From Letharia columbiana (taxonomy: Eukaryota; Ascomycota; Lecanoromycetes; Lecanorales; Parmeliaceae), in the NCBI RefSeq assembly GCF_014066305.1, contig NW_023501065.1:434001-498000 (forward strand): a stretch of 64,000 nucleotides of DNA, given 5' to 3'. A program made the position numbers and the translations under genes. Under the pieces are notes generated by a model, which did not search any database, was not told the origin of the DNA, and saw only the letters and a program-made list of their open reading frames with translations. Of the stretch, positions 5,545 through 47,346 are shown one piece after another; the stretch's first letter is position 1; each line of letters starts with the position of its first letter.

Positions 5545-6262
5545 AATCGATATTCCACATATCTAAGTATTTTGTATTATTATTACGTTATGTTATTTTT
5601 AAAATATATCTCAAGTTTAATTTAACGCGATATAAGATCTTTTAACTCTTTTAATTATTATAAGTACTACGAGTACGAAGACTAATAAAAGTTCTATATA
5701 TACGCTATATTCTCTTAGTATATTTATAAATTAACCCTCGTCTTAAGTATAGTAATATAGAAAAGCGATCTGTAATATACGTTATAACTTTAATAGAGCG
5801 AGTAAATTTGTAAATACTTACGCTATATAAAGTAATTATCACTAGAAAGACTAAAGCTATTTAATAAAAAGGTTCATTTTTATTTAAAAGCCCTTATTTA
5901 GAGATTTAGCGTATCTATAATTTTAATAAAAATAATCGTAAAGATTTATAAATTAGAAATTAGTAATATTTATTAATTAGAGCTATCGAGTAAATAGAGT
6001 AAGCGATTTAATAAGTAATTAATATCGCGTAAACGTAATTTCTTACGCTTTAATATTATAAGACTATAATTTAAAAAGTCGATTTTAGTCTAAAAGACGT
6101 AATAACCTCGAATTTATAATTAACTATATATATATATTTAAGATTTTTAAGCTTAGCTCTATCTTATTCTTTTTATATATATTAATTAGAAGATAAAATA
6201 TAATATACGTATATTCTCTTTTAATATATATTTATCTTCTTTTAATATATATATACTTCTTT

Positions 6263-6309
6263 TAAATTCGATTAGCTTTCGCGCGGCCGCTAGTCGTATA
6301 AGATATAAA
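6263..6309 (+). repeat. Left inverted arm of E
   Basis: Forty-seven nt matching the reverse complement of 46,980-47,026 with 44 identities. The three differences are C/T or G/A, as expected from RIP. The core reads CGATTAGCTTTCGCG. Confidence 0.8.
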
Positions 6310-7027
6310 TCTTATATATAGTCGAAGTAAGATTAAAAGAGATAGAATTATATAAGGCGAATAGCGAGATAGTCGATAGCGAGATAGTCGATAGCGAGGT
6401 AAACGTAATACGCCAGTCTATATGTAGGGTAACGAGATTATATTTAATATCTTTCAGCTATAGAAAGGCTAGGTGGCTAATAGATAATAGATACTCGAGT
6501 ACGATAGACGTATTTCTAATAGTAACGAGAGAGAGTAGTTAGTTAATTAGCTATCGCTATAGAAGAATAATTCATTTAACGATTTAAAATCGTCTAATCT
6601 TTTAGACTTTATTAGAAGAGATTTAGAAAAACTTATCTTACTACGTAACTACTATCTCGAGAATATTAGAAGTTATTATTCTCGAGATTTACTCGACTAC
6701 TATTAACTTTTCTATTAAAATACTACTATAAATACTTTTAAATAGTTTATTATAAAGTATAATATACTTCTATATACGTTTACTTATAGATCTCGTTATT
6801 AGAAAGCTATTACTTATAAGAAAGTTAAATTTTATAAAGCTATTAATATTCGAAAGAATAGCGAAAAAATAATAAAAGATATATATATAGAAAAGAATAT
6901 TATATATAATATAAGTAAATATTAAGTAAAAATAAGATAGTATTTAAGCTTTTCTAATACTAGACGATATAAAAAATAGCGTTCTAAACGTTCTTTTAAG
7001 ATTAATTAATTTATATACGATATTCTA

Positions 7028-7193
7028 TATTAGAATTAGTATAGATACGATACTAGTATAAGTAAGATAGATTAAGAATAATAAGACTATCGAACTATAT
7101 AGGTGAAAAGAAGATATAATATAATAGAAATTATCTTCGTTAAGGCCCGCTAGTTATAGAGCTAAGAAGTATATTAAGAATACGCTTATAATA
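7028..7193 (-). repeat. LTR of F (3' LTR in element orientation)
   Basis: 166 bp, a RIPed version of the 164-bp LTR seen intact at 39,673-39,836: every TG/CA end has become TA. A TTCTA target duplication precedes it. Confidence 0.88.
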
Positions 7194-9803
7194 CTATTTC
7201 TCTCTCTTAATAGTTATAGTCTCTATAACTAATAGATCGAAGATATAAATCTATTACTTATCTTATATCTTTAAATATTTATAATTTATATAATTCTTAA
7301 TCGAAGAGAATTAAGATTCTAAAGATATAGCTATATCTTATCTACGTATTAGTAAAATTCTCTAAGTTCTTCTCCCGTCTAGTCTACTTACTATAGGCCT
7401 TTAAAAGAATTAAATAATTTTATTATATACGTATTAAACTCGCTGAAAATTTATAAAAATAAAGAACTTTTAATATTCGAGATTTTAAATATAATACTCG
7501 TTCTTAGCGACGATAGTAGTAGTAATACGACTTTATATAAAATTCTCGTATTAATCTTATCGCTAATTAGAGATATAGCGAGTATAAAAAGCCTAGTTTA
7601 ATAGAAATTAATAAAAGAATAGATAAGTAATAATTAATAATTATCTTAGTAATCTATAATAACTCTCGAGTCGATATTCTAGCGTAAAGAATATTAATAA
7701 AATAATATAATATAATTAATTAAGGGCTCTCAAATCGAATTAAGTCGTAAACGCTAAAAACTCTAATTTAATATAAATAATTCTAATGTAAGTTTCTTTA
7801 TAGAATATTATATAATCGATATTAATAAGAGTTATTAACGAGAATAATAAGATCTATAGATAACGTATTATAACTTTAAAAGACTTTTATATATATAATA
7901 ATAAGAGAAGCTTATCTAGTAAATTTAATATAAGATAATTCTTAAGTAATATAAGTCTAAGAAATTAATTTTACAAATATAAAAAGAATAAGACTATTCT
8001 AAATATCGAATAGTTTTAATTCGTTTAAAAATATAATATTCGAAGTATTATCGAGTCGTATATTAATCTTAACTATATTATTTTACGTTTATAGAAAGCT
8101 CTAGTAACTAAGCTCGTATACTTTGTCAAAATCTATATCGAATTTAAAGTATTTATTATACTTTTATATATAAGTCTAATTTTTATTTATAAGATTCTTT
8201 ATCTTAATAAGACTTAAACTCTTTATATTAAAAATAAGACGAGTTATAATTAAGTATTTACTCTTCTTTACGTTAGTCTTAATCTTTACTTTTATATATT
8301 ACTTTATAAATCTTTTAATCTTTTTTTCGATAAATTTCTTAGTAAATTATTAATATTTAAGCTATATTTTTATAATATATTTCTTTAATTAAAATATAAT
8401 CTAATCTCTTATTATTAGACGAATTAAGTTATAAAAACGAAGTTTCGATTTCTTTTATATATTATTTATTAGACTCTTATTTCTAAGATCGTTAAGACTA
8501 TTATTTCTAAAATTATATTTAATATACTTAATAAGATTATCGTAGAATTTAAGAAATAATTAACTTTCTTAGTTTATTTTATTATAAATATATTAATAGA
8601 TTCTTCTAAGAATAAATAAGAATATCTTATATATATTACTTAAATAATTTAGAAGATTATCGACTATAGAGTATAAGCGATATCGTTATCTAATAGATAT
8701 ATACTAACTAGCTTTCTCTTTAAGTCTCGCTATAATATAGATAATTTTAAAAATATTAATAAGAAAATAATTATTATTATAAATAAGCTTATCTTAAATT
8801 CTTATTTTTTAATTATCGAATAATATTAAATTAGTATTTATAAAGATAGATAAATCTAATAGTCTTAAACTAAGTAATTATCTAATTTATAATAAAATTA
8901 ATTAATATCGATTTACTCTAAATATCTTAAAATCTCGTAAAGTGAGTAGTAGTAGAAATAAAGGCGGAGGCGAAGTAGAGATATTAGGCGAGTTTTAGTC
9001 TTATATCTTCGATACTTTATAATATCGCTAATATAGATTTCTAATAGATAGAGATCGCTATATATATAATATATAAAGTCGTAGCGAATTTAAAGGCGAA
9101 TATCTTATATATAGATCTTTATAAATAAGAAAGGGCTAGTTATAATATATAGATAATCGACGATATAAAGATATATATCTTAATATTAATATAGATAGAT
9201 TTAAATTAAAATTTATAATATATTAAATATAGATAAAAATAAGACGAAGAAGATAGACGTAAAAGTGATTTTTTTAATTAGTTTCGAGTAGAATAAAAAG
9301 ATCTCTAGAACTTCGTATTATAAGGCGTATATGAGTCGAGAAAGGTGATAGATCTCTATGTTAAGTATTGAATTTTAGCTATAACGTTCGAAATGATATT
9401 ATTTCTTCGCGGGGGTCTATAACACTCGTTTTTTAACTAATTAAGTCGTCGTAAAGACTATAAGTACTCTAAATAGTATCTTTTCGAATAGAAGAAAGTT
9501 CGCCGGGGGTGTGTTAGCCGGTAATAGACTTTTTGCGAGAAACGAAGCGGAGAAGGATTTCTTATATTCGATATAGGGGACTCGTTTTTTAATGGATTAG
9601 ACTATCGTTAATAATGTAGACTATCTGATATAGATTCTTTCGAATAATATAGGTGTTTAATGATTTAAATGTATGGTAAGACTTCTATATAGTAGAAATA
9701 CCTAGCGTTTTCTTTATTAAACTCGATCGCTTACTCTAAGTAGAAAGTAAAAAACTCGTTAATTCTCTTTATCGAGGGGGTATATAAAGGAGCTTTATTA
9801 TAA

Positions 9804-9969
9804 TATTAGAACTAGTATAGATACGATACTAGTATAGATAAGATAGATTAAGAATAATAAGACTATCGAATTATATATATAGAAAGAAGATATAATATAA
9901 TAGAAAGTATCTTCGTTAAGACTCGCTAGCTATAGAACTAAGTAATATATTAAGAGTACGCTCGTAATA
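9804..9969 (-). repeat. LTR of F (5' LTR in element orientation)
   Basis: 166 bp, direct repeat of 7,028-7,193, followed by the matching TTCTA duplication at 9,970-9,974. Confidence 0.88.
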
Positions 9970-10123
9970 TTCTATATAACGTTAATAATTTTATATATAA
10001 TTAAAAATTTAAATATTAACTTTAATATTATACTATTTTAATTATCTTTTATACGCTATAATAATACGCTTTTAAGTATATTTAGAATACTTAGATATAT
10101 AAGTAACGATTAATTAAAAAAAT

Positions 10124-10287
10124 TATTAAAATTAATATAGATATAATATTAATATAGATATATTAAATAAGATAACTAAGATATCGAATTATATAGATAA
10201 AAAGAAGATATAATATAATAGAGAATATCTCAATTAAGGCTCGCTAGCTATAGAACTAAGAGATATATTAAGAGTATACTCGTAATA
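10124..10287 (-). repeat. LTR of D (3' LTR in element orientation)
   Basis: 164 bp, heavily RIPed form of the LTR at 39,673-39,836, beginning TATTAAAATT where the intact copy has TGTCAGGACC. Confidence 0.87.
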
Positions 10288-12873
10288 TTATTCTCTCTCT
10301 TTATTAAATTATATTCTATAATTAATAAGTAAAAAGATAGAAAAATAAATATATATATACGCTTAACGTCTGAAAAAAATAATAAAAATAATAAAGAAAT
10401 AATTATATCTAGAATCTCTTAATATAATATCTTTCTTTAAGAGTAATATTAATAACGATAGTAGCTCTTCTTAATTATACTATAGCGATATCGTTAATTA
10501 TAATCTAGATATATATAAAAAGTTTAATCGAAAGAAAATTAATATAATATAATAAAAATTATATTTATAGATATAAAGATAATTAATAGTAATTTTCGAG
10601 TTTATATTTAAGCGAATAGAATATTAATAAAATAATATAACGTAATTAATTAAGAGCTCTTAAATCGAATTAAGTCGTAAACGCTAAAAACTTTAATTTA
10701 ATATTAAATAAGTTTCTTTATAAAATATTATATAGATAATATTAATAAAGGCCATTAATAACGATAATAAGATTTATAAATAATATATTATAGCTTTAAA
10801 AAATACTTAGATATTAATTAATAAAAGAATTCTACGCGAAAAATTATATATAAAATAATTCTAATTAATATAAATTTAAAAAATTAATTTTTAATTTTAG
10901 AAAAAATAAGATTATTATAAAGATATTAAATAATTTTAATTTAATTAAAAATAAAGTATTTAAAATAATTTTAAAATTCTATTAATTAATTCTTTATAGA
11001 TAAGACTTTTCGAGATATCGCTTATAAAAATTATCTATTAGATTCTAATAATTTTCGAATTTATCGCTATTTATATTATATTAGATTAAGTTATTATTAA
11101 AATCTTTTTATTTAACTTTATATTTAAAATAATTATAAATTAATTTAAAATTAAATATTTTTTTAATAATTTATTTAATTTAATTATTAATAATAACGTA
11201 TTTTGATAGAGAGTTTATTTATTTTAATAATAAGTTATTTATTATAAGACTTAAGAGATTAAAATAAAAGACGTTATAGATTTTTATATTTAATAAAAAA
11301 TTTAGATAATATAAAGTTTTAATAAAATCTATAATTTTAAATAAATTAAGTTTTTTATAGTTTAATTTATAAAAAAAGTAATTAAAGATAATATTCTTAC
11401 TATTTAGAAAGATCTTATTATCTATTTAAAAAGTAATTTTTTATTAATATTTATTAATTTATATAATTATAATCTTCTAAACGCGATTTATATTACTTCG
11501 AATATATTTAAAAACTTATTTTATATAATTTATAATATTCTTTATCTAAGTATTATCGAGATATTTATATATAATCTTATAATTAATAATATTTAAATTA
11601 AAAGTTATTCGAGAATAAAACCTCTTATTAATAAGAAAAAATAAGATATTAATAATTAATAAGATAATATTATTATCGACGAACTCGATAATAGATAATT
11701 ATTTTACTTAGTTATTCTATATATAATTATAATATATTTAAAAATAATACTTTATATTCTAATTCGCTTATTTAATTTATTTATTAATTTTAAAATAAAA
11801 GATTATTAATACCTTAATTATAATACTTAATTTCTTATAAAAAAACTTTTATATAATAATTATAAATTAAGAGTTTTAATTTAATATTATTAAGATTAAT
11901 AAATTATATAAATAAAATACTTCTTTAAATAATAAATTAATTATTTTCTTAATAATAATATCTTTATTAATATCGAAATAGATTATATAATAACGTTTCT
12001 TAATAAATTAATTAATCGCTATTTAAATAGTATTATAATTATTAAATATAAGTAAGTCTATAATAAAGTTAATTAATATATCTTATTATTATTTTTATAA
12101 AATTAATAGAAATTAAAATAAATTATATTTTTAATTATAAGATATTTTAATTTTTTAATAGATATAATAATTTTAAACGTAGATAGTTATAATAATTTTT
12201 ATTTCTTATTAATAATATTCTCTTTTAAATAATTTATAAATATATATTACTTCGAAATAATTATAGAATATTTAATTATATATCTCTTAAATAATATTAT
12301 ATATATATTATTAAATATCTATAAATAATTCTTATAGTAAAATACTTTATTTTATATAAAGTACTTATTAAAAGTTATCTTTTAAAACTTATTTTTATCT
12401 TTAATAATAGTATTATAAGTTTTTATATAATAGTTATTCTTCTTATTAGTCTCTATTATTTTATAATAAATAAAATTATTAATTATATATATATTAATAT
12501 ATTTACTATTTAATTTTAATTAATTAAGAATAAAAATTATTTAATATTATTAGTATAATTATTTATTTTTAAAATTAATTAATTTATATTTAATTATTTA
12601 TATAAATATATTTATCTTAATATTTTAAGATTTAAATTAATAAATAATCTTTATATTAAATTTTAATAATATATTTAAATAGCGAGTCTAGTAATAACTA
12701 AGATCTCTTTTTTTAATAAAATATATTAAGTTTTTATAGTTTATAAAGATTTTAATAAGAATATTGATATATTTTAATTTAGAATACTAGTATTTTAGAT
12801 AGCGAATAATAATTAATAATTTCTTATTATAGATCTAATAGTTATACTCGACTAAAGTAAGATTCTTATTATA

Positions 12874-13149
12874 TATAAGAGCGTAGTTTACTAACGATTA
12901 ACTAGCGAATATAGACTATAAAAGACGTAGAGTCGTTATAAGATTTAATAGTATATTTAATAGTAGAATTAATTTCTAAGAAATATTAAAACTTCGAGAT
13001 ATACGAAGTAGATCTATATTCGTTAAGTCTCTAGATATACGAGATATATTATTAAAATTAGATTCTAAAAGAGACTCTAACGTAATATATGCGATATCGA
13101 AGTCTTAATATAAGTTACGTTAAGGCTTATAATAGTATTAAATCTAATA
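12874..13149 (-). repeat. 276-bp LTR of C (3' LTR)
   Basis: Begins TATAAGAGCGTAG and ends AATCTAATA, consistent with RIPed TG...CA ends. Its direct partner is at 29,238-29,513. Confidence 0.85.
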
Positions 13150-13858
13150 ATTATCTTTTCTTTTAAGTCTTAATTTTTAAACGTTTAAGTAAATAGAATA
13201 CTTATTAAAAAAAATTTAAATTCTAATAAGAAAATAAGAGAAAAGAGTTAATTTATTATAATATTATTTTAACGATATAATAGAACTAACTATTACGCGT
13301 TATAGGCGCGCTATTAATATATTATATATTAATATTAATATTATCTCGAGAATAATATCGCTTCTATAATATTAATTTATAATAATTTATAATAAGTTAA
13401 CGCGCTTAGTATTAGCGTTTTTATAATATTAGTTAATAGCTTCTATAGCGAATAGATATTTAATTTAAAAACTTATAATAAAATCTCGAAATCTTAGTAA
13501 ATAAAAAGAGATAGAAGAGTTTTTTTATAAATAATATTATTTTTACGATATAGTACGCTAATAGCGAAGTAACGTAGTAATAATCTTTATTATAAATATT
13601 CGAAGAGAGTAATTAATAGAGCGACGCGTTCGCGATAATACTCTTAATTATTAATTAATAATAATAATAGAATAATAATAATAGCTAGATAACGCGATTT
13701 TATAAATAATAGCGAAATATTATTACGTCGTTAATACTTATATTATTAAATATTATCTATTAATACTAGCGCTATAATAAAGAATATAAAAACTTTCTTT
13801 AAATTATTTATTTTTATTCTTTATAACTTTTAATACCTCTTTTATAAGTACTTACTTT

Positions 13859-14022
13859 TATTACGAGCGTATTCTTAATATATCTCTTAGTTCTATAGCT
13901 AGCGAGCCTTAACGAAGATATTCTCTATTATATTATATCTTCTTTTTATCTATATAATTTAATATCTTAATTATCTTATTTAATATATTTATATTTATAT
14001 TATATTTATATTAATTCTAATA
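13859..14022 (+). repeat. 5' LTR of A
   Basis: 164 bp, starting TATTACGAGCG (RIPed TGTTACGAGCG) and ending CTAATA. The ACTTT duplication precedes it. Confidence 0.9.
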
Positions 14023-17000
14023 CTATAACTAAGATTAATCTACTTATTTTATTTATATTAATAAATAAATTTAAAGAAACGCGTTAATAGAGGCTTTAAT
14101 AAGAAATTAAGTTAAATTATTATATCTTTAGATAAATCTATTAAATAAATAAATCGATTTTAAAGAGTTTAAAAGAGATAGCGAAATAATTTTAATAAAT
14201 AGTAATTAAGAAATAAAGAAGATATTAAATTATTTATATAATTAGCGAATCGAAAGAAATAGTTAATATTATTTTATATTTTTATATTTAAAATATATAT
14301 TAATAATACTACTTATAACTTTATATATTATAATATCTAGAATTTTAATAAGATCTTAATTAGATAAGAAATAATCGAGTTATAATTAATTTAAAATACT
14401 ATTTTTCGATTTTTTTTATATATAATTTCTTTATAAGATAAGAGACTCTTTAGACGAAGTAAGTATACTTAAAAAACTATTATTTAAAATACTTATAATC
14501 TTCTTAACGCTTTAAATAATTAAGAAATAAATATATTAAATCTTTATAAAAGAAATAACCTTATCTTAGACTTTATAATAAAAAAATTTATTCTTAATAT
14601 TAAATAATTTTAACGCGTTTTTAAGAAATTTTATTATTCTCTAATATATCTAGTATTTCTAATATTTATTCTTTTAAAATATTTAAACTTCTCTTTACTT
14701 TATTTTAAATCTTTTTTTCTTCTTTTTTATAGTAAAGTCTAATATCGAAAGAATAGATTAAATTAAGATTTTATTTAAATAAATTAAGTTTTAATAAATA
14801 TTTCTTCTATTAAATAATATAGTTAACGAGTTTAATTTGATAAAAATATTTTAAAATATTATTAATAATTTATAATTATAATATTAAACTAAGTATTAAC
14901 TTAATAAATTTATAATTATATTAAATAAAATTTATTAGAAATAAAATAATTTTAAAAGGATTATTACTCGATATTATATCGTTATAATAATAAAAAATTA
15001 AATAATAAATAATATATTTTAGATTTATAAAATAATCAACAAAATAAATTAATTAATTTAAGATTTTTAGAAGAATATAACTTCTTTATAGCGAAAAGTT
15101 AATAACTTTAATATATAATCTATAAAAGATTTATAATTATTTTTAATTAAAAAAATATATACGTCTAAATAATTAAAAGAAAAATTAATTAAAATCTTAA
15201 ATTTATCTTTATTTATTAACGATAGTAATTTTATTTAAAATAATTAATTCTTTAAAATAAAATAGAAATTTAAGATTAATAATAATAATTATTTTATTAA
15301 GAACTTTAAAATAATTTATATAATCTTATAATTAAGCGATAAGATTATATAATATACGATATATAAAAGACTTCGAAACTTTATTAATTTATATTAGTCT
15401 TTTATTAAGATTATAAATAAGTTAATTAATATTTATAAGAATTTAGATTAATATAATAATATATTATATAATATATATACTCTATAATAAAAGACTTAGT
15501 TTTTTATTAACTTCTATTTAAATCTTATTTAATTAAATATTATTTTTAATATTAAAAAAATCTATATATTAGAGAATTATCTTTTTAAGAAATTAAAAAG
15601 AAATTAAAAGAGTTATAATAGATCGTAAAAGGTTTTATTATTTTAAAAATTATAAAAAAAAATTATAAAAATTAAATAATTTATAGTATATTAATTATAA
15701 AAATTTTAAATTTATAAAGATTATTATTAAGTTTATTATAATATAAATATTAATAATAATATTCGCAATTAATATATATCTTATATTTATTATTAAATTT
15801 AATTTAAATATAATTATTATATTTCTAAATATTATAATTAATTTAAAGTTAAGAAAATTAATATACTATAACTATAATAAGAAAGATTATTATTAAAAGA
15901 ACTATATAATAATTACTTAAATTAAAACTAATAGAAAGACTTTTAAGAAAGTATAATTCTACGCGATAGAAATAGATAAAGAATTCGAAATTAATAATAT
16001 CGATATTACGGGTAGTAATAGTTCTTCTTCAAATTTAAAAAATAAATAATCTCTTTTAAAGTTATAATAAGAAATATTTATAAAATATATCTAATAAATA
16101 CTTTTAATAACGTCTTAATATATCGTTCTTTTTATATATAAGTTATACTTTTCTTATAAAAGAGAATCTATTTACTTAAGAACTCTCTTATAAATAATAA
16201 ATATATTAATACTTATATAATTATAAATAAGTTTTTAATTTTAGTAATATATAAGGCCTTATATCTAGAATTATTCTTATTATTATAATCTAAATTATTA
16301 AAAAATTATAACGACTAGATTATAAAATAATTAATTATATATTATTTACTTTCTACGATAATAGTAAAAGATTATTAAGAAAAAATGTATTTAATATTAA
16401 TTATATTATTAAAATATAATATAATAATTAAGAAATCTTAAATAAATAAATATAAGATAATTCTTAATATATTATAAAATAAGATACTCTTTTTATTTAA
16501 TCGATATAATTATAATAGTAATTAGATATTAATAATAAACGAACTTTCTTTTCTATTAACTTTAGAGCTCTAACTACCTATATTACTTATTCTCTTATCT
16601 ATTATATTAAAATAATAAAGTTTTTTTTTATTTATTTATAATAATAAAATTAATTTAAATATTTTTTTATTAAATAAGAATAAGAATAGTAAGAAGTTTA
16701 AGTTTATTAATATTATTAAGATTAATATAGCGATTTACTACTAACTAGCTCGTAAAAAAAAAACTATTTATATTAATAATAAATAAGATCTATAATAACT
16801 CGTTAATATTATATATATCTCTTATTAATTAAATATCTTAAGGTTTTTATATATTAATTAATAAACTCTATTTCTATAACTTAGAAAAGAAATATAAAAG
16901 ATATTACGATTTTAATTATTCTATTTAAATTAATAATATTAATAAAATTAATTCTAAAAAGATAAAATATAAACTATCTATAAAGTATTATAACTATCTT

Positions 17001-17056
17001 AATATTTTTAATAAAACTAAGATAAATATACTTCTTTTATATTATTCTTATAATTA

Positions 17057-19696: not shown

Positions 19697-20099
19697 ATAA
19701 ATTTAAATTTAATAATAACTTTAATAAAATAAAATTTTTAAAAAATAAAATCTATTTAATATTAGAATATAAATTAGAATAAATAAAGAAGTATCTAAAT
19801 AAATATCTAAAGAAGGATTTATAATATTAAATTATATATTATTTATTTTATCTATTCTATTCGCGAAAAAGTCGAATAAAGAATTATATTTTTATATAAA
19901 CTATCGAAAGTTAAACGCTATTATTAAAAGAAATTAATATTTAATTTTATTAATAAATAAGATTTTAATAAGAATTTAGAAATATAAATATCTTACTTAA
20001 TTAGATATTATAGCCGCGTTTAATAAACTATATATATATCTTAATAGCGAGAATTTTACTACTTTTATTACCTCTCTTAAAATATATAAATATTAAATA

Positions 20100-23200: not shown

Positions 23201-23301
23201 TACTTTTTTTTTTTTTTAGATATTAAGCGTATATATATATCTATTTTTCTATCTTTTTACTTATTAATTATAAAATATAATTTAATAAAGAAGAAAGATA
23301 G

Positions 23302-32967: not shown

Positions 32968-33952
32968 CTATAATTAAGATTAATTAATTTATTTTATTTA
33001 TATTAATAAATAAATTTAAAGAAATACGCTAATAGAGGCTTTAATAAGAAATTAAGTTAAGTTATTATATCTCTAAATAAATCTATTAAATAAATAAATT
33101 AATTTTAAAGAGTTTAAAAAGAATAGCGAAATAATCTTAATAAATAGTAATTAAGAAATAAAGAAGATATTAGATTATTTATATAATTAGCGAATCGAAA
33201 GAAATAGCTAATATTATCTTATATTTCTATATTTAAAATATATATTAATAGTATTACTTATAACTTTATATATTATAACGTTTAAAGTTTTAATAAAGTC
33301 TTAATTAGATAAGAAACGGCTGAGTTATAATTAATTTAAGATATTATTCTTTAAAACTTTTTTATATATAACTTTTTTATAAGATAAGAAATTCTTTAAG
33401 TAAAGTAAGTATACTTAAAAAATTACTATTTAAAGTATTTATAGTCTTTTTAACGTCTTAAATAATTAAGAAATAAGTATATTAAATTCTTATAAAGAAA
33501 TAATCTTATCTTAAGCTTTATAGTAAAAAAATTTATTCTTAATATTAAATAATTTTAACGCGTTTTTAAGAAACTTTACTACTTTTTAGTATATCTAATA
33601 TTTCTAATATTTATTCTTTCGAAGTATTTAAACTCCTCTCTACTTTATTCTATAGTAAAGTTTAATATTAAAAAAATAAATTAAATTAAGACTTTACTTA
33701 AGTAAATTAAATTTTAATAAATATTAATTCTATTAGATAATATAATTAACGAGTTTAATTCGATAAAAATATTTTAAGATATTATTAATAATCTATAATT
33801 ATAATATTAGATTAAATATTAATCTAATAAATTTATAATTATATTAAATAAAATTTATTAAAAGCGAGATAATTTTTAAGAGATTATTATTTAATATTAT
33901 ATTATTATAATAGAAAAAAATTTAATTATAAATAATTTATTTTAGATTTATA

Positions 33953-34614
33953 CCTTAGAGGAAATACACGATTGGGGTATGTCACGTGACTGTACTATCA
34001 ACTCGATATTTGTTATAACTTTCAATCAACTTTCAATCAACGTCTTATTGATATTAGGATTTCGATAATATTAAATTATTCGATATTTGAAATTAATGGA
34101 TAATTATTTCGTAATTCCCTTATTATATATTAAGGTTTATACTAATTCGGGTATCTCGCTTCGCTTATAATAGCCTATTCATCAACGTCACGTGATTTAT
34201 TTTTCGATTTTTGGATTTTTCTCGAAATTTGATATATAAGTAAGATATATAGCCCTATAGGGCTGTGGGACTTAGAGAAATTTTCGAAAAACTTTATATA
34301 TTACCGCTAGCCATTAATTCTCTACTAGTAATATATTAATGTATTACTTTATAGCGTAGTATTGAAATAATAACAAATCGATATCTCTTTTATATTCCAT
34401 TAACTGTCCATTAACTATCCATTAATAATAAATTTGACTAAATCTACTATAAATAGAAAATTTTATATAACTCTATTCGACATACGTTATATAGAACGTA
34501 AAATCTGAATGTATCCGGTGTGTAGTCCTTATTATACAAATCGTATAATTATAGCTAATGACTTATTAATTTTCTCTTAATAGTAAATACCCATGTGTAG
34601 TAGCTCCCGTAAGG
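33953..34614. mobile_element. MITE-like DNA element with TA target duplication
   Basis: A 662-bp insertion in B, flanked by TA on both sides (33,951-33,952 and 34,615-34,616). The uninterrupted site with a single TA is seen in A at 15,028-15,029. The ends are imperfect inverted repeats: left CCTTAGAGGAAATACACG, right (reverse complement) CCTTACGGGAGCTACTACAC, followed by a shared GGGTAT. TA duplication is typical of Tc1/mariner and pogo/Fot1 elements. No coding capacity is visible. It is only weakly RIPed and holds a 14-bp palindrome AGCCCTATAGGGCT at 34,251-34,264. Confidence 0.8.
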
Positions 34615-37054
34615 TAGAATAATTAAGAAGATAAATTAATTTTTAAATTTTTTAGAAAAATATAATTTCTTTATAGCGAAAAGTTAATAGTTTTAATATA
34701 TAATTAATAAAAGATTTATAATTATTTTTAATTAAGGAGAAATATATATCTAGATATTTAAAAGAAAAATTAATTAAGATTTTAAATCTATCTCTATTTA
34801 TTAATAATATTAATTCTATTTAAAGTAATTAATTTTTTAAAATAAAATAAAAATTTAAAATTAATAGCGATTATTATCTTATCGAGAATTTTAAAATAAT
34901 TTATATAATCTTATAATTTAATAATAAAATTATAAAATATATAATATATAAAAGACTTTAAAACTTTATTAATTTATATTAATCTTTTATTAAAATTATA
35001 AATAAATTAATCGATATTTATAAGAATTTAGATTGACGTAGTAATATATTATATAATATATATACTCTATAATAAAAAACTTAATTCTTTATTAATTTTT
35101 ATTTAATTTTTATTTAATTAGATATTATTTTTAATATTAAAAAAATATAAATATTAAAGAATTATTTTTTTAAGAAATTAAAAAAGAAATTAAGATAATT
35201 ATAGTAGATTATAAAAGATTTTACTACTTTAAAAATTATAAAAAAATATCTTTAAAAATTAAATAATTTATAATATATTAAGTATAAAAATTTTAGATTT
35301 ATAAAGATTATTATTAGATTAATTATAATATAAATATTAATAATAATATTTATAATTAATATATATCTTATATCTATTATTAAGTCTAATTTAAATATAA
35401 TTATTATATCTTTAAATATTATAATTAATTTAAAATTAAGAAAATTAATATATTATAATTATAATAAAAAAGATTATTATTAAAAGAATTATATAATAAT
35501 TATCTAGATTAAGATTAATAAAAAAATCTTTAAAGAAATATAACTTTATATAATAGAAATAGATAAAGAATTTAAAATTAATAATATTAATATTATAGAT
35601 AGTAATAATTCTTCTTTAAATTTAAAAAATAAATAATCTCTTTTAAAGTTATAATAAGAGATACTTATAAAATATATCTAATAAATATTTTTAATAATAT
35701 TTTAATACGTTATTTTTTTCGTATATAAATTATACTATTCTTATAAGAGAGAATCTATCTATTTAAAAAAATTTATATAAATAATAAATATATTAATACT
35801 TATATAATTATAAATAAATCTTTAATCTTAATAATATATAAAGTCTTATATTTAAAATTACTTTTATTATTATAATTTAAATTATTAAGAAATTATAATA
35901 ACTAGATTATAAAATAATTAATTATATACTATTTACTCTCTATAATAATAATAAAAAATTATTAAAAAGAAATATATCTAATATTAATTATATTATTAAA
36001 ATATAATATAATAATTAAAAAATCTTAGATAAATAAATATAGAGTAGTTTTTAATATATTATAAGATAAGATACTCTTTTTATTCGATTAATATAATTAT
36101 AATAATAATTAAATATTAATAATAAATAATCTTCTCTTTCTATTAACTTCGAAGCTTTAATTATTTATATTATTTACTTTCTTATCTATTATATTAAAAT
36201 AATAAAGCTCTTCTCTATCTATTTATAATAATAAGATTAATTTAAATATTTTTTTATTAAATAAAAATAAAAATAATAAAAAATCTAAGTTTATTAATAT
36301 CGCTAAGATTAATATAGTAATTTATTATTAATTAGCTCGTAAAAAAGATAATAAGTTATTTATATTAATAATAAATAAGATCTATAATAACTTATTAATA
36401 TTATATATATTTTTTATTAATCGAATATCTCGCAATTCTTATATATTAATTAATAAACTCTATTTTTATAATTTAGAAAAGAAATATAAAAGATATTATA
36501 GTTTTAACTACTCTATTTAAATTAATAATATTAATAAGATTAATTCTAAAAAGATAAAATATAAATTATCTTTAAAGTATTACGACTATCTAAATATTTT
36601 TAATAAAATTAAAATAAATATACTTTTTTTATATTATTCTTATAATTATAAATTAGAATTTAATAATAATTTTAATAAAATAAAATTTTTAAAAAGTAGA
36701 ATCTATTTAATATTAGAATATAAATTAAAATAAATAAAGAAGTATTTAAATAAATATTTAAAGAAGAAATTTATAATATTAAGCTATATATTATTCGCTT
36801 TATTTATTTTATTCGCGAAAAAGTTAAATAAAGAATTATATTTTTATATAGACTATTAAAAGCTAAACGTTATTACTAAAAGAAATTAATATCTAATCTT
36901 ATTAATAAATAAGATTTTAATAAAAATTTAGAAATATAAATATCTTACTTAATTAGATATTATAATCGCGTTTAATAAACTATATATATATCTTAATAGC
37001 GAGAATTTTATTACTTTTATTATTTTTTTTAAAATATATAAATATTAAATTCTC

Positions 37055-37175
37055 TCCTTTAATTTAATTAATAACTCGATTATATATTAATAATATATAA
37101 ATAATATTCTATTTAAATATCTAAATAACTTCTATTAGATCTATCTCGATAATATACTTATTTATAATAAAATAA
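37055..37175 (+). pseudogene. Reverse-transcriptase remnant of B
   Basis: Collinear with the RT remnant of A, including the YLDN box, with additional RIP-type changes. Confidence 0.78.
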
Positions 37176-39672
37176 AAAAGAAATACATTTAATACGTTAG
37201 ATAAATTCTCTAGAAATTAAGAGATATTAATTTTTAGATAAATATTCTTAAATATAAATTCTATATCTAAAAAACTAAGTTTCTAAATTTATTAATATCT
37301 ATAAATAAGTTATAAATAAACTTTATTAAAATTTAGATTATTATTAAGTAGATTATATCTATTAACTTTAAAAAGATATAAATCTTTATTAAATTTTATA
37401 ATTTTTATTAATAATTTATTAGAGATTTCTTTAAAATAATAAAATTTATAATAAAATTTATAATAAAGAAAATTATATTTAATTAGTTCTTAGTATATTA
37501 AGAGATCTTTTACTTTCTTAAAGTCGCTATTATTAAAACTTTAATTCTATATTATTTTAATAAAATAAAGAAGATCGTTTTAAAGATTAACTCTTTCGAT
37601 TATATTAATAAAGATATTCTTTTCTAATATAATAATAAGAGAATATTTTACTTAATAGTCTTCTATAGTAAAAATCTAACCTCGATTAAATATAATTATT
37701 AGATTTATAATAAAAAATTATTAATAATTATTTATTATCTAGAATATTAGCGCTTTAAATTAAAATATATAAACGTCTCTATTAGAATCTTTATCGATTA
37801 TAAAAAACTAATATATTTTATTAAGAGAAGAAATCTTAATTAACGCTAGACTCGATATTTAGATATATTATTAGAATTTAATATAAAGATTATTTATCGA
37901 TTTAGACCTTAAAATATTAAGATTAATATATTTATATAAATAATTAGATATAAATTAATTAATCTTAAAGATAAATAATTACGTTAATAGTATTAAATAA
38001 TTCTTATCTTTAATTAATTAAAATTAAATAATAAATATATCGATATATATATAATCGATAACTCTATTTATTATAAAGTAGTAAGAGTTAATAAGAAAGA
38101 TAAATATTATATGAAAATTCGTAACGCTATCGCTGAAGATAAAGATAAATTTTAAGAAATTACTCTTAATAAGTACTTTATATAAGATAAAATACTTTAC
38201 TATAAAAACCGTTTATAAATATCTAATAATATATATATCGATATTATTTGAGAGATTTATAATTAATTATTCTACGGCTATCCCGAAATAGTATAAATTT
38301 ATAAACTATTTAAAAGAGAATATTATTAGCGAGATATAAAGGCTATCGTAGTTATTTATATTAAGAATTACTATATCTATTAAAGAATTAAGATATCTTA
38401 TAATCGAGAGTATAGTTTATTATAGTCTCTACTAATTCTATAGAAACGATAATAAAATATATTAATTAACTTTATTATAAACTTATCTATATTTAATAAT
38501 TATAATACTATTTAAATAACGATTAATTAACTTATTAAGAAATATTATTATATAATCTATTCTAATATTAATAAAGATATTATTACTAAGAAGATAATTA
38601 ATTTACTATTTAAAGAAGTATTTTATTTATATAGTTTATTAATCTTAATAATATTAAATTAAGACTCTTAATTTATAGCTATTATATAAAAGTTTTTTTA
38701 TAAAAGATTAAATATTATAATTAAGCTATTAATAGTCTTTTACTCTAAAATTAATAAATAGATTAAATAAGCGAATTAGAATATAAAGCGTTATTTTCGA
38801 ATATATTATAATTATATATAGAACGACTAAATAAGATAATTATTTATTATCGAGTTTATTAATAATAATACTATCTTATTAACTATTAATATTCTATCTT
38901 TTCTTATAAATAAGAGATTTTATTCTTAAATAACTTTTAACTCGAATATTATCGACTATAAGATTATATATATTTATATCTTAATATTACTTAAACGAAG
39001 AATATTACGAATTATATAGAATAAGTTTTTAAATATATTTAAAGTAATATAGACTACGCTTAGAAGACTATAATTATATAAATTAATAAATATTAATAAA
39101 AAATTACTTTTTAAATAGATAATAAGATCTTTTTAAATAGTAAGAATATTATCTTTAATTACCCTTTTTATAAATTAGACTATAAGAAACTTAATTTATT
39201 TAAGATTATAGACTTTATAAAAATCTTATATTATCTAGAACTTTCGCTAAGTATAAGAATCTACGATATCTTTTACTCTAATCTCTTAAATCTTATAATA
39301 AATAACCTCTTATTAGAGTAGATAAATTCTTCGCCGAAGTATATTATTATTAATAATTAAATCGAATAAGTTATTAAAGAAATATTTATTTTTAAATTAA
39401 TCTATAATTATTTTAAGTATAAAGTTAAATAAAAAGATTTCGATAATAATCTTATCTAGTATAATATAAATAACGATAAATTCGAAAATTATTAAAATTT
39501 AATAGATAACTTCTATAAGCGATATCTCGAAGAGTCTTATCTATAAAGAATTAACTAATAGAATTTCGAAATTACCTCGAATACCTCGTTTTTAATTAAA
39601 TTAAAATCGTTTAATATCTTTATAATAGTCTTATTTTTTTAAGGTCGAGAATTAATTCTCTAGGCCTATATC

Positions 39673-39836
39673 TGTCAGGACCAGCATAGATGCGATATTA
39701 GTATGGGTGAGGTAGATAGGATAATAAGGCTACCGAACTATGTATGTGGGAAGGAGGCATGATATGGTAGGGGATGCCTCCGCCAAGGCCCGCTAGCCAT
39801 AGGGCTGAGTGGTGTGTCAAGGGTACGCTCGTAACA
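39673..39836 (-). repeat. 3' LTR of G
   Basis: 164 bp with intact TG...CA ends. It differs from its partner at about four positions, all transitions. It is the least mutated copy of the LTR in the window and serves as reference for the ten copies. Confidence 0.93.
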
Positions 39837-39851
39837 GTACTCCCCCCTCTC
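39837..39851 (-). promoter_or_regulatory. Polypurine tract of G
   Basis: On the minus strand the bases just before the 3' LTR read GAGAGGGGGGAGTAC, the usual position and composition of the plus-strand primer of LTR retrotransposons. On the opposite inner border I could not recognise a tRNA primer-binding site starting TGG. Confidence 0.7.
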
Positions 39852-40675
39852 AAATAGCCATGGCCCCCATGGCTGGTAGACCGGAGATGCAGGCCCATTG
39901 CTTGCCTTGTATCTCTAAACATCCATAGTCCCTGCAAGCCTTAACTGGAGAAGATTTGCCAGAGATCCTGGAGATGTAGGCCATATCTTGCCTGTGTGTA
40001 AGTAAGAATCTCCAAGCCCTTCTCCAGTTTTCTTGCGATGGTCCTTCGAAAGAACCACTTGTGCGTCATAACGCAGTTGCTCGCTGAAAATCAATTAAAA
40101 AACAAGAACTTTTGGTGTGCTATGTCAGCCAAATTAGTACCTTTTCTCTGGCGACGGCGGCGACAGCAATAGGAGATTCCGCTAGCGTCTCGTCGGTAGC
40201 ACTTTATTAAAGTGTCAAAGGCCCTCGATTTGACGAAGGTCCATGAAGAATTGAATGAGTAGTGATCAAAAACGCAGTCTGATGCCGAATAGTTATTTGA
40301 TACTCACTTTTGCAGTAGTGAGGAAATCCATGAAATGATGAGATTTGATTGGTCAGTTGCTCCCGAGCCGAACCGAGCCGTAGGCGCTAAAAACTTTAAA
40401 CCAATTATCAAATGAGTCTCTCTATGGGATGCCACATAGCCGATATCGATAGAGGTTACCGACGGCGGCAGAGGCTCCGGAGGACCTCCAGGCATATGAC
40501 AACAAGGGGAGCCCGCTTGATGGGCCTGATATAAGGCTATTGTTGAGAACATGGGCCTAAGGAATCGATTTGCGAATATAAAAAAATGAGGTTATTCTGA
40601 CATCGGATGGTTTCAATTCGTCTAAAAACACGATATCCGAAGATTTGCCGGTGCCCATGCTGATTTCGACTGCAT

Positions 40676-41818
40676 TTACGCATTCGCCTGCTGCGTTCTC
40701 ATGACCATACCGTTTGTAGGTCTAATGTGTCCATATGGCCTAGTCGCAGGCCTGGTGCGTTCGCATAGCCATGCCTATCGCCTATATTCCTCTGGATCAG
40801 GGCGAGGAATAATAGCATATTTACCGCGTGGTTTGCTTGTATCTTCGAGTCTCGCTTTGGTATATTATTTGGCAAATGCCTTTGCTTTCTTGTCTGCTAG
40901 CCGTTCGATATACATCAAATCACGGTATTCTAATATAATAAGGTATTCCTTCAGGTCTAGCAATATCCACTTTCTTCCGTACATAACATATTCGTCCAGG
41001 AGACGGAGGTTTGCCCTGTTCTTCAAGTCGATTATGAGATCTGGCTGAATGACATTAATCTGATATTCTTTATCGCTATACTCCTGCATGTACGCGGTAT
41101 GTTTCATGAACTCCTCGTAATACTCGGAAAATGACTGATTATCATGTCTTCTGAAGATTGAGTAGTCATAAACATTCCTTTGTCGAATAATGTCTGATGG
41201 AGTCTCATAAAGATCACTCAGTTAATTCAGGAGGTCGTCGACTAAGAGATAAGGATTTTTTATAATCGTTCGACGTCTAGGTACCGTGTGTTCGACAGCC
41301 TTCCCTCCAAGACGTGATACGACGTAGTTTATCTGAAAAGCGTGGGTAGGATAGTAATCTTTATTAAGGCTGAGTTTGTTTATGATTCTTATTTTCCAGT
41401 CCTCGAATTTAGATCTATCAATATCGTTAAATATAGGTGGATCCGGTAGCCTCGGGCTGAGTGGCTGTCTGACTGGCTGTGGCGAGATTGATCGATGTCG
41501 ATGCCGATATAGTCTCAGTGCTTCGAAATCTCGTGATATAGGTGGAGGTGGGGACGAGGGCGGAAGGACAGAGATGCCAGCCGCGTTTTGGGCCTGTATC
41601 TCCTCTTATTGACTTGGTGCCTCGCGATATCGCTGGTAAAGATCCTCAGCAGATAGAGAGCGCTGCACACGTGGCATGTGGAGTGACGGCGAGTTGGGAG
41701 GTGAATATCTTCTATGTAGGTCGTCGTATGTAAGGTAGGGATGGCCGCGGTATGTAGGTGATCGGCGATGCGGAGGGAGGTATCTTGGTGTTGATGTAGG
41801 TGGATTTGAGGAATCCAT
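40676..41818 (-). pseudogene. Gag-like gene of G, broken by four RIP-type stop codons
   Basis: One minus-strand frame runs from ATG 41,818 to about 40,676. It starts MDSSNPPTSTPRYLPPHRR (Pro/Arg-rich). Then comes a retrotransposon-gag-like core with FEDWKIRIINKL, YVVSRLGGKAVEH, LSDLYETPSDI and SFSEYYEEFMKH, then basic segments. In-frame stops stand at 41,606-41,608 (TAA), 41,222-41,224 (TAA), 40,865-40,867 (TAA) and 40,775-40,777 (TAG). Each is one C-to-T step from a Gln codon in CpA context. No zinc knuckle or protease was recognised. The frame is otherwise uninterrupted, which supports recent activity. Confidence 0.78.
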
Positions 41819-42402
41819 GATGTGTTGAATGTAGGTAAGAACGGAGCGGAGAAGATAGGCGTAAAAATGGCGATTTTGGCTGGGCTTCCCCGTCGAGGGT
41901 TACTGCAAATATCGATAGAATGGAGAGATCTCTGGAACTTCGGTACTGTGAAGGCGTATGCGAGTCGAGAAAGGTGGCAGATCTCTGTGTTGAGTGTTGA
42001 TATTTGGCTGTGACGCCCGAAATACTCGTTTCTTGACCGATGAAGTCGTCGTAAAGACTATGAGTACTCTGAATGGTGTCCTTTCGAATGGTAGGAAGTC
42101 CGCCGGGGGTCTGTTGGCCGGTGATAGATTTTTTGCGGGGAACGGAGCGGAGAAGAATTTCTTGTATTCGATGTAGGGAACTCGTTTTTTGATGGATTGG
42201 GCTACCGTTGATAATGTAGGTTGTCTGATGTAGGTTCTTTCGAATGATGTAGGTGGTTTGTGATTTGTATGTGTGGTGGGGCTTCTGTATGGTAGAAATA
42301 CCCAGCGTTTTCTTTATCAGGCTCGGTCGCTTGCTCCGAGCAGAAAGTGAAAAACCCGTTAATTTTCTTCGCCGGGGGGGGTACGAAGGAGCCTTATTAT
42401 AA

Positions 42403-42566
42403 TGTCAGGACTAGCATAGATACGATATTAGTATGAGTGAGGTAGATAGGATAATAAGGCTACCGAACTATGTATGTGGGAAGGAGGTATGATATGGTAG
42501 GGGATGCCTCCGCCAAGGCCCGCTAGCCATAGGGCTGAGTGGTGTGTCAAGGGTACGCTCGTAACA
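42403..42566 (-). repeat. 5' LTR of G
   Basis: 164 bp. Relative to 39,673-39,836 it has CCAGC to CTAGC, TGCG to TACG, GGGTG to GAGTG and GGCATG to GGTATG, so this copy is the more RIPed one. Confidence 0.93.
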
Positions 42567-43146
42567 ATATCGATCGAAAATTATATTATATATAGCCTTC
42601 CGCGTAGAATCCCTTACTAATTAATATTTAAGTATCTTTCGAAGTTATAATACATTATCTATAAACCTTACTATCGTCGTTAATAGTCTTTATCGATATT
42701 AATTATATAGCACTCTACGAAGAAACTTACTTAATATTAAATTAGAGTTTTTAGCGCCTACGGCTCGATTCGATTCGAGAGCTCTTAACTAATTACGTCG
42801 TATTATTTCATCGATATTCTATCCGCTTAGATATAGATTCGAAAATTACTATTATTTACTCCTACGTCTATAAATATTATTTTCGTTATATTATATCGAT
42901 TTTCTCTCGGTTAGACTTTTTATATATACTTATATCTCGATTAGCGATATCGCTATAGCGTAAATATAAAGAGCTACTATTATTCTTAATACCTCTTATA
43001 AAGAAAAATACGATACTAAGATTCTCGAATACGATTATTTCTTTACTGCTTTTATTATTTTTTAGATGTTAAGCGTATATATATATCCATTTTTTCTATC
43101 TTTTTACTTATTAATTATAAGATATAATTTAACGAAGGGGGGGTAG

Positions 43147-43310
43147 TATTACGAGCGTATTCTTAATATACCCCTTAGCTCTATAGCTAGCGGGCCTTAG
43201 CGGAGATATTCTCTATTATATTATATCTTCTTTTTATCTATATAATTCGATATCTTAATTATCTTATTTAATATATCTATATTAATATTATATCTATATT
43301 AATTCTAATA
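43147..43310 (+). repeat. 3' LTR of B
   Basis: 164 bp, less mutated than its partner (it keeps TATTACGAGCG and CGGGCC), followed by TTTAT. Confidence 0.9.
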
Positions 43311-44087
43311 TTTATTAAAACTTAATTTACTCTAATAAGATCTTAATTTAATTTATTTTTTTAATATTAAACTTTATTATAAGAAAGAAGAAAGAAAGAT
43401 TTAAAATAAAGTAAAGAGAAGTTTAAATACTTCGAAAGAATAGATATTAAGAATATTAGATATATTAGAGAATAATAAAGTCTCTCTAAAATATATTAAA
43501 ATTATTCGATATTAAAAATAAATTTTTTTACTATAAAGTCTAAAATAAGATTATTTCTTTATAAAAATTTAATATATTTATTTCTTAATTATTTAAGACG
43601 TTAAGAAGATTATAAATACTTTAAATAATAGTCTTTCGAGTATACTTACTTCGCTTAAAGAGTTTTTTATCTTATAAAGAAATTATATATAAAAAAGTTT
43701 TAAAAAATAATATCTTAAATTAATTATAACTCGATTGTTTTTTATCTAATTAGAGTCTTATTAAAATTCTAGATATTATAATATATAAAGTTATAAGTAA
43801 TACTATTAATATATATTTTAAATATAAAAATATAGAATAATATTAATTATTTCTTTCGATTCGCTAGTTATATAAATAATTTAATATCTTCTTTATCTCT
43901 TAACTACTATTTATCGAAATTATTTCATTATTTTATTTAGACTCTTTAAAATTAATTAATTTATTTAATAGATTTATTTAAGAAATATAATAGCTTAACT
44001 TAATTTCTTATTAAAGTCTCTATTAGCGTATTTCTTTAAATTTATTCGCTAATATAAATAAAATAAGTAAATTAATCTTAATTATAG

Positions 44088-44251
44088 TATTAGAATTAAT
44101 ATAAATATAATATTAATATAGATATATTAAATAAGATAACTAAGATATCGAATTATATAGATAAAAAGAAGATATAATATAATAGAAGATATCTTCGTTA
44201 AGGCTCGCTAGTTATAGAACTAAGAAGTATATTAAGAATACGCTTATAATA
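44088..44251 (-). repeat. LTR of D (5' LTR in element orientation)
   Basis: 164 bp, direct repeat of 10,124-10,287 about 34 kb away, now separated by nested insertions. Confidence 0.87.
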
Positions 44252-44521
44252 AAAGTCTTAAAGTCGAATATAGAGAAAAGGCTAGAATATAAATATAAAT
44301 ATAATTAAGAGTATTATATAATAGATGATTTTTAATATTTTATTATATAGACGAACGAAAAGTATTAAAACGTTAGATTTATATAATAAAATCATATATT
44401 TTAAAACGCTAATATCGCTAAAAACTCTTAAAATATATAGTCTATATCTTTAAAGTAAGATATCTTAATTTATATACTTATAAACGTCTTATAATATTAT
44501 AAAGATAAATTATAATTCTAT

Positions 44522-44655
44522 TATAACGAGCTTAATCGACCTCGAATTATAATTAAAAAACTCTTAAAATTACGTCGTCGTTTAAAGAATAATAACGAAG
44601 AAGAATATTAAAAGCGTATTCGTTAGTAGAAAGCGAATTTTTTCTATAGTTTTAA
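44522..44655 (+). pseudogene. RIP-degraded reading frame remnant in E
   Basis: One forward frame reads charged segments such as KKLLKLRRRLKNNNEEEY and KRIR, interrupted only by TAA/TAG codons that a single C-to-T change would make from CAA/CAG. This suggests decayed coding sequence, perhaps of a transposase. I cannot assign a family and the frame is too short to be certain. Confidence 0.25.
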
Positions 44656-46979
44656 TATTTAGTTAATTGAAAATAGTATAATAATAGAGTATTATATTAA
44701 ATATTAGCTTTTAAACTATTATTAGAGTATAAATTAATTATAAATTAAATACGATTATAATATTTTATAAAAAGATAATAATTTAAATTATAAAATAATT
44801 CGAAGTAAGAAGAATATTAAGATTAATATGAAAAATATCGCTATATAGCTAAAATTCGATAATTAAATTAAGACTTTAGAATATCTTATATAATTATCTA
44901 ATCTTAATCTAATTAAAATTATTTAGAATCTTCTAAATAAATAGATTTATTAATAATAATAAAATAATTAATATAAATATCGTATAATAATTTAGAAGAA
45001 ATAAGATCGAATCGAACTTAATAAAATTTAGATCTAAATTATTAAAATACTTTAATAATATAGAATATTACGAGAGGGTAATTATATTAAGCTTATTAAG
45101 TCTAAGTTATAGTAGAAATATATATATTTAATAGAAAGTTAGTAGTTAATTTAAAAGTTATTTATTTTATTCGACTATTTAGCTAAGATAGCCGTCTTAA
45201 CGAAGGTACCCTATTTAAAAATCTATAGAGACTTAAATCTATAAACTACTCTTATTTAAGTATATATAAAATATTACGCGTAAAAATCTTTATAGAGAAA
45301 GACTATATCGAGTAACTTTATTAAATTAATATTAAATTAAATAAATTAGAGATAAAAGAGGGGATAGATAAAAATAAAAATAAACTATTTAAATAATAGA
45401 TTTAGATTTATTAATTTATCTTAATTATTAATATCGCTAATATCTATATTCTAATTTTTTATAATATTATTTAACTTCTTAATTATCTCTACTATCTTAC
45501 ACTTAATTTAATTTATTATCGCGAGAAAGTAGGATATTATATAAATAAAGCCTTTATAAATCTTTATTTAACTAAGAAACTCGTTATAAAGATTTTTAAA
45601 TATTTATATATTATATTTTTTAATTTAATATCTCTTATAAAGATATAAAACTTAATCTATAAGAATTTACTTTTAAATTAAGATTCGATAATAACTTTAA
45701 GCGATATCTAAGAACTAATATATAATTAAATCGCTAAAACTATATAATAAATAATATTTTTATAAGATCTAAATAGTAGTCTAATAGAGAATATCTTATC
45801 GTCTCTTATTAATATCTCTTAAATTAAGATTAAGTATTATAAAAGCGATTATCTTATTAATAATTCTTATCTCGAGTATCGAGTTAGAAATTAGTTAATT
45901 TAAAATAATAAAAAACTCTTTTTATATCGCTTTTAATACTATATACTTAATCTATATATAAAATAAAAATTAATTAATATTATAAATAAGATATAGCTAT
46001 TATTATATTAATACTTAAATAAAATTAATTTTTAATTAAATCTTTTTATAGAGTAATCGCTAAAGAAGGTTCTCTATACGCGATATCTTAAATTTATTAT
46101 AAGTCGTAATTTATATTCTATTCGCTAAGACTTTTAATTTATAGCGATATTAATAAATAAAAATAGAGCTTTTAATTCTATCGCTAAAATTAATAGCTTT
46201 TAATCTCTTATCTAAGATTATAAAATAGACTTATTAAAAGCTAATCTTCGATAAAGAAATAAGATAATTATTAATCTCTATAAAGTATTTTTATCGAAGT
46301 ATATTTAATCTTTATATATATAAGATCGAAAGTAGTAGATATTAGTTTAATAAAATAGCGTTAGAAATTAATTTATTAATAGTATAGTCGATCTAGAAAG
46401 AGTACTTATTATATACTATTCTAGTCGAAACTATTAAGACCGCGTATATCGAGTTTTATATATCTTTAAAAACTCTAATACTCTTATCTTATAAAGCTTA
46501 TTAAATCTCGAAGTTAAACTTTTTTATATTCTTTAAATCGACTTTTCTTAATAATAAATAGTAGAATACTAACGTCGCTAGTAGTTTTATAATAATTAAA
46601 GAAAAGTTTAATTTAGAGAATTTATATAGATATCTTTTTTTATCGCTACTAGATAGTTTATATTAGCTTCGAAATATAATTAAGCTAATTAGAGAATTAA
46701 GTTATTTAAAAATTAATAAACGCTAAGATATATAGAAGACTTCGAGTATATAATATTAGAATATCTTTAGCTAAAATAATCTATACTAATTCGAGAAAGT
46801 TAATTACTCTACTAACTATAGCTATAACGCTTTCGTCGATAATAGCTTATAGATTAATTATCTCGACTTTACTCTTATAGAAAGTTAGTAGTAATCGAGT
46901 AAACTTCGAGAATAATAACTTCTAATATCTTCGTACACTAAGAGTCTCGATAATATTTTCTAGAAAGCTATATACGAAG

Positions 46980-47026
46980 TTTATATCTTATACGACTAGT
47001 GGCTACGCGAAAGCTAATCGAATTTA
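46980..47026 (-). repeat. Right inverted arm of E
   Basis: Partner of the arm at 6,263-6,309 in opposite orientation, 44 of 47 identical. On this side the second inverted match begins only about 50 nt inward, against about 350 nt on the left, so one side has gained or lost roughly 300 bp. Confidence 0.8.
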
Positions 47027-47346
47027 AGAGAGTATATATATATTAAAAGAGAATATATATATATAGAAAGAAGATATACGTATATTACTTTCCTTCTTTT
47101 CTTATAAATTCGAGTTCTCTACGCTTTTTAGCTAGACTATCTAAGTTATCGCGAATAAATAAATTAGCGTTCGTAACTATTAAAATCTCTTACTCTATAC
47201 TCTACTTTTAATCCTTTAATAACTTTACTATTTTCTATTAAAATTTTAATTTTTTTTTAAAATTATAAAGCGTAGATTACGCTTTTAAATACTCTAAAAA
47301 TTTCTAAATTTAATCTTATAATTATTAAAAAGCAAGGCATTCAAAT

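Follow-up and report, generated by a model that had tools for sequence, protein, structure and literature searches.

We analysed a 64,000-bp stretch of the genome of the ascomycete Letharia columbiana (contig NW_023501065.1, positions 434,001 to 498,000; hereafter the window), which lies in a 52.2-Mb assembly of 161 contigs. The window contains a 42-kb block of mutually inserted transposons, here called the nest, with at least 11 elements at six levels (Table 1); an earlier note on this DNA had counted eight. The fraction of guanine plus cytosine (GC) is ~0.47-0.58 in the flanks and 0.08-0.30 across most of 6-47 kb, with higher values at 17-20 and 40-43 kb. The flanks, of normal GC, encode a dyskerin/TruB-like pseudouridine synthase (2555-3427) and a CHORD-domain protein (49833-50381). 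The best-scoring named relative of a further frame (51158-52423) is from Cornicularia normoerica, also of the Parmeliaceae (87% identical across 84% of the query); the other names listed with it are those of lichen-forming fungi, and the host is thus probably a lichen-forming Lecanoromycete.

We believe, with a probability of roughly 0.93, that the block was built by successive transposon insertions in an AT-rich repeat compartment of this fungus that is mutated by repeat-induced point mutation (RIP). Element E would have jumped into the short repeat X. F, D and a truncated copy resembling a long interspersed nuclear element (LINE) would have jumped into E, C and B into D, and A into C. A Helitron would have jumped into A, and a miniature inverted-repeat transposable element (MITE) and G, a short element with long terminal repeats (LTRs), into B. 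Each step would be ordinary transposition: the LTR elements duplicated 5 bp of their targets, E and the MITE duplicated TA, and the Helitron went in between A and T and duplicated nothing; the LINE-like piece probably arrived by target-primed reverse transcription. RIP would have brought eight of the elements close to saturation.

Table 1. Elements of the nest, from the outermost inwards, with target duplications, LTRs and RIP measures. Positions are those of the window; the element limits used for the RIP measures are up to ~15 bases off the final limits given here.
Element	Position	Strand	Nature and place	Target duplication (left, right)	LTR length (bp)	LTR-LTR divergence (transitions, transversions)	Composite RIP index	CpA+TpG per kb
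X	~6200..47095	none	short repeat whose ends are inverted; left part ~6200-6652, right part ~46936-47095; outermost element resolved; ends +/- ~15 bp				1.21	9.8
E	6655..46933	none	inverted-end element, 1453 bp net; host of F, D and the LINE-like fragment	TA (6653-6654, 46934-46935)			1.17	3.4
F	7028..9969	none	2942-bp LTR element inside E; RIP-saturated	TTCTA (7023-7027, 9970-9974)	166	10.8% (15, 3)	1.13	8.5
D	10124..44251	-	A/B/D-family LTR element inserted in E, 6971 bp net; host of C and B	AAAAT (10119-10123), AAAGT (44252-44256)	164	9.1% (14, 1)	1.09	1.1
C	12874..29513	- (tentative)	LTR element, net 7028 bp, inside D; holds A	TTATA (12869-12873), CTATA (29514-29518)	276	11.6% (32, 0)	1.17	2.1
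A	13859..23465	+	Ty3/gypsy-type LTR element inserted in C, 6966 bp net; host of the Helitron	ACTTT (13854-13858, 23466-23470)	164	12.2% (19, 1)	1.08	2.0
Helitron	17057..19697	-	non-autonomous, 2641 bp, inside A	none; between A (17056) and T (19698)			-0.53	144
B	32804..43310	+	Ty3/gypsy-type LTR element inserted in D, 6944 bp net; host of the MITE and G	TTTAT (32799-32803, 43311-43315)	163 and 164	16.0% (25, 1)	1.09	1.9
MITE-like element	33953..34614	none	662 bp, inside B	TA (33951-33952, 34615-34616)			0.35	63
G	39673..42566	none	2894-bp LTR element inside B; not RIP-saturated	ATATC (39668-39672, 42567-42571)	164	2.4% (4, 0)	-0.35	119
LINE-like fragment	45146..46876	- (inferred from truncated end)	inside E; cut short at 46876	ATAGAAAGTTAGTAG (45131-45145, 46877-46891)			1.25	0.6
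Flanks of the nest							-0.54 and -0.60	140 and 137

The order of insertions follows from containment. We compared the window with itself (matches of at least 72% identity and 60 bp; at lower identity the comparison was unusable, flooded by the ~65% matches typical of AT-rich DNA) and read the junctions. Every element named in the earlier note was recovered, and the seven target duplications that it listed (F, D, C, A, B, G and the MITE) were all found at the exact junctions. The duplications of F, A, B and G are exact, and the two copies at D and at C are one transition apart. In 200,000 draws of random 5-mer pairs from the AT-rich block, 0.97% matched exactly and 2.0% matched exactly or with one transition. 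Thus a single duplication means little, but the six 5-bp duplications together are far beyond chance (joint probability ~4e-12, the sister copies left aside). Sister copies of the E family carry AAAGT at D's target site, and so AAAAT on D's left has changed from G to A, the kind of mutation expected if RIP acted once D was in place.

The insertion order is better supported than could be shown from the window's letters, because sister copies in the same genome provide empty sites (comparisons filtered at at least 74% or at least 76%). The flanks of C's site are continuous in A and B, those of B's site in A, those of the MITE's site in A and D with a 2-bp overlap, and those of G's site in A. In B and D the flanks of the Helitron's site adjoin, and the junction falls precisely between A and T. 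Copies elsewhere serve for the remaining sites: A's site is uninterrupted in a C-family copy (locus L055), the sites of F and D in E-family copies at L055, L056 and L057, and that of the LINE-like fragment in E-family copies at L055 and L056. The outer flanks of E lie together at two loci (L028 and L033), to within ~15 bp. The earlier claim that containment gives the order of insertion is therefore borne out.

Rejoined after removal of their guests, A, B and D came out at 6966, 6944 and 6971 bp, as the reported 6.97, 6.94 and 6.97 kb had it, and their LTRs are of the reported 164 bp, except that one LTR of B has 163. The three also align over their whole length, piece by piece, a check that had been proposed. 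A and B are 86.6% identical over 6914 sites (843 transitions, 86 transversions); A and D are 88.7% identical over 6938 sites (710 transitions, 71 transversions). The strand of D follows from its homology with the other two. Matches to RVT_1 and RNase H lie above the cut-off in B and below it in A, and an A/B/D sister at L056 has an RVT_1 match above it. LTRs, duplications in the 4-6 bp range and RVT_1 followed by RNase H place these elements in the Ty3/gypsy type, D by homology only. They resemble fungal Ty3/gypsy LTR retrotransposons in their paired LTRs, 5-bp duplications and reverse transcriptase and RNase H matches, and differ in being RIP-saturated with only remnants of the domains. Genome-wide searches for RVT_1 and for Copia-type reverse transcriptase gave no match inside the window among the best 150 scored candidates of each.

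In self-comparison the LTRs of F and G resemble those of A, B and D. F shares ~480 bp of inner sequence with D, and the nearest full-length relative of G is 82% identical to it. No domain was found in four of the six frames of G; a Toxin_20 match in one frame (E 0.049, below the cut-off) was taken as chance. We take F and G to be akin to non-autonomous LTR elements of the class of large retrotransposon derivatives and terminal-repeat retrotransposons in miniature. Like such elements they are short (~2.9 kb) and have LTRs related to those of a longer family, here A/B/D, a tie that for G rests mostly on the LTRs.

What had been described as a GC island held by A does lie inside A, but its nature had been misread: it is best described as a non-autonomous Helitron that made no target duplication. 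Read on the minus strand, its first bases are TCAGTATATAT and its last are CTTG, and a hairpin with an 8-bp stem lies 11 nt from the 3' end (5 of 200 shuffled sequences fold equally well). The family has dozens of copies (the best 40 of 1277 candidates were scored), ending in CTTG or CTTA. At ends that fit the motif (L035-L054; the ends left out include at least those of L045, L046 and L050), a host A precedes the plus-strand start at all 23 ends and a host T follows the end at all 20. An apparent 5-bp duplication flanking the island was ruled out, since in the other copies those bases are the end of the element and the host A and T. A tandem array or minisatellite found by TRF occupies the centre (17505-18745), with similar repeats extending to 19017. 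No Rep/helicase frame was seen in the window copy, in which one 175-aa frame was examined; no genome search for a Rep/helicase gene was made. Measured by the end rules summarised in the available text of PMC5148889, the copy is like other Helitrons in its TC start, in a hairpin within 10-12 nt of the 3' end and in insertion between A and T without duplication. It differs in ending with CTTG (or CTTA) rather than CTRR and in its inner minisatellite. Thus 17057-19697 appears to work like a Helitron, yet by the CTRR rule it would not be a canonical Helitron1.

The outermost levels are different from what had been proposed, a single host E spanning 5545-47340. That is, the margins of such a 42-kb host match several unrelated repeats, which rules it out, and sister copies delimit one element, E, at 6655-46933. 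We searched with four margin repeats (40 candidates scored for each). The segment 6193-6667 matches a short repeat, X, at dozens of places, and 45107-46875 matches a 1.7-kb repeat. The ends of X match each other in inverted orientation (6181-6318 and 46969-47109, 83.8%). Because two loci hold the outer flanks of E together, E sits inside X. With inverted ends and a TA duplication, E and the MITE both have the features of elements with terminal inverted repeats. The other two margin repeats, 6090-6186 and 47102-47478, are short and widespread and border X on its outer sides. The former is similar to the TC end of the Helitron (6092-6205 against 19605-19714, 74.6%), and the latter contains a 14-bp unit in tandem (47342-47396). 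Two further short tandem arrays lie in the right flank, where GC is normal, at 53672-53811 (63-bp unit, 2.2 copies) and 60681-60765 (8-bp unit, 10.6 copies).

The insertion at 45146-46876 had been overlooked. It is flanked by a 15-bp duplication, and all seven fetched copies of its family share ~800 more bases past the end of the window copy (84-92% identical in 21 of 21 pairs), where the window sequence matches them over 32-36 bp only. A longer, variable target duplication together with 5' truncation is what marks a non-LTR (LINE) insertion, and the 15-bp duplication and one-sided truncation point to target-primed insertion.

The nesting between these families is not one-way. At L056 (reverse complement 4884-6361) an E-family copy lies inside an element of the A/B/D family, the reverse of the D-in-E nesting in the window, and it meets its host with a 2-bp overlap. 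At L057 (reverse complement from ~4777) an E-family copy has G-family LTR sequence on both sides. Thus, these families jumped into each other in both directions.

Several observations weigh against our reading or against parts of it. G's site in the D copy shows a short mismatched stretch. E's site in X is placed only to ~15 bp, and E's left flank in X has bases without counterpart in L028. The LINE-like fragment gave no domain match in six frames, nor did a longer copy (L059, 1-6088) give a reverse transcriptase match in its three plus frames; we therefore call it LINE-like only. The domain search of D's centre was without a match, and D was joined to the family by its identity to A. In C, the RNase H matches on the minus strand (E 0.016 and 0.057) are both below the cut-off, and the plus strand gave no reverse transcriptase or RNase H match. 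The class names given to D, the LINE-like fragment and C are accordingly provisional, based on structure or homology. The composite RIP index of the MITE is positive, and some RIP on it is possible. Finally, the nest was read from the sequence of one assembly.

The signature of RIP, an excess of transitions and a depletion of CpA and TpG confined to the repeats, is present; the ratio of transitions to transversions is 9.8 between A and B and 10.0 between A and D. RIP separates the elements into classes only: eight are saturated, the Helitron and G are not RIP-mutated and are similar to the flanks, and the MITE is intermediate. The MITE has a GC of 0.28, and its best other copies are 97-98% identical to it (45 matches, 40 candidates scored), which leaves little room for private RIP. 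The two LTRs of G (39673-39836 and 42403-42566) differ at four positions, all C/G on the left and T/A on the right, and at three of the four the context is CpA/TpG; the changes in the right LTR are possibly a first trace of RIP. Most copies of the Helitron family are near normal GC though other repeats in the genome are RIP-saturated. That a 2.6-kb Helitron present in dozens of copies has largely escaped mutation amid saturated repeats calls for an explanation. We infer that the low level of mutation in the Helitron, G and the MITE reflects either their recent arrival or their being poor substrates for RIP.

A different account of the same contrast is that RIP lost much of its strength after one wave of transposition and that a later wave then brought in the Helitron, the MITE and G, so that the nest would record a change in defence. 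It would explain why the three innermost elements, which are unrelated, carry far fewer mutations than the eight that surround them. We think it unlikely, because RIP seems to have touched the late arrivals as well: in 8 of 42 aligned parts of Helitron copies, C/G losses outnumber gains at least threefold when the window copy is the reference, and the differences between the LTRs of G have the direction and mostly the context expected of RIP. The positive index of the MITE weakens the case further. In addition, a DNA methylase domain is present at five loci (on contigs C52, C5, C28, C84 and C2), which are candidates for the RIP machinery, that is for methyltransferases of RID or DIM-2 type. 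According to the available text of PMC12542154, two ~730-bp DNA transposon families of Cladonia rangiformis are little affected despite strong RIP in that genome.

The nest had also been proposed as a relative clock, with LTR divergence and RIP level growing with time since insertion. The innermost LTR element, G, does have the lowest LTR divergence, and the Helitron, G and the MITE are the least RIP-mutated. Among the RIP-mutated LTR elements, however, the order is reversed: in all three host-guest pairs (D-C, C-A and D-B) the younger guest has the larger divergence, as the proposed calculation of LTR divergence showed once it was run. The five RIP-mutated LTR pairs together have 105 transitions and 6 transversions; LTR divergence therefore measures RIP, and transversions are too scarce to rank the elements. 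GC does no better. In the seven host-guest pairs in which both members are RIP-mutated, the GC of the guest is higher than that of the host in four (F, the LINE-like fragment, C and B) and lower in three (E, D and A), and so RIP level does not track nesting. Both LTR divergence and, among RIP-mutated elements, GC were thus ruled out as clocks, and we regard the proposal as very improbable. The nest yields an order of insertion; RIP yields classes and no clock.

That the nesting is unreal, an artefact in which the assembly wrongly joined similar LTR copies, is suggested by how repetitive these copies are, but we find this hardly credible, since a wrong join would not make the duplications that flank each LTR element, host pieces on the two sides adjoin in sister copies, and sister elements differ at 11-13% of sites, enough for reads to separate them.

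Nested, RIP-mutated stacks of transposons are already known, and the block that we describe is an ordinary but clean example, assembled, in our view, by successive insertions. In Umbilicaria pustulata, Gypsy, Copia and Helitron elements have been reported, and the word RIP is absent from the available part of that paper (PMC8773270). RIP makes LTR ages less useful in fungi, as the accessible text of PMC4981457 states. Containment fixes the order of insertion without recourse to divergence, and the block therefore allows LTR dating to be tested directly in a genome subject to RIP. The dating runs backwards in three of three pairs, and that caution can be seen inside a single nest. The closest parallel is Cladonia rangiformis, as presented in the available portion of PMC12542154: ripped repeat regions with nested transposons, the later ones often GC-richer, and two small (~730 bp) DNA transposon families hardly touched by RIP. 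The window is like it in the sharp boundary between gene space and repeats, in repeats of 10-20% GC, in nested insertions, which are drawn there in an annotated contig, in the GC-richer later insertions and in small DNA transposons little affected by RIP. In contrast to that account, the order in the window was set base by base, by target duplications and by empty sites in sister copies, and here the GC of RIP-mutated elements follows no nesting order while LTR divergence runs in reverse.

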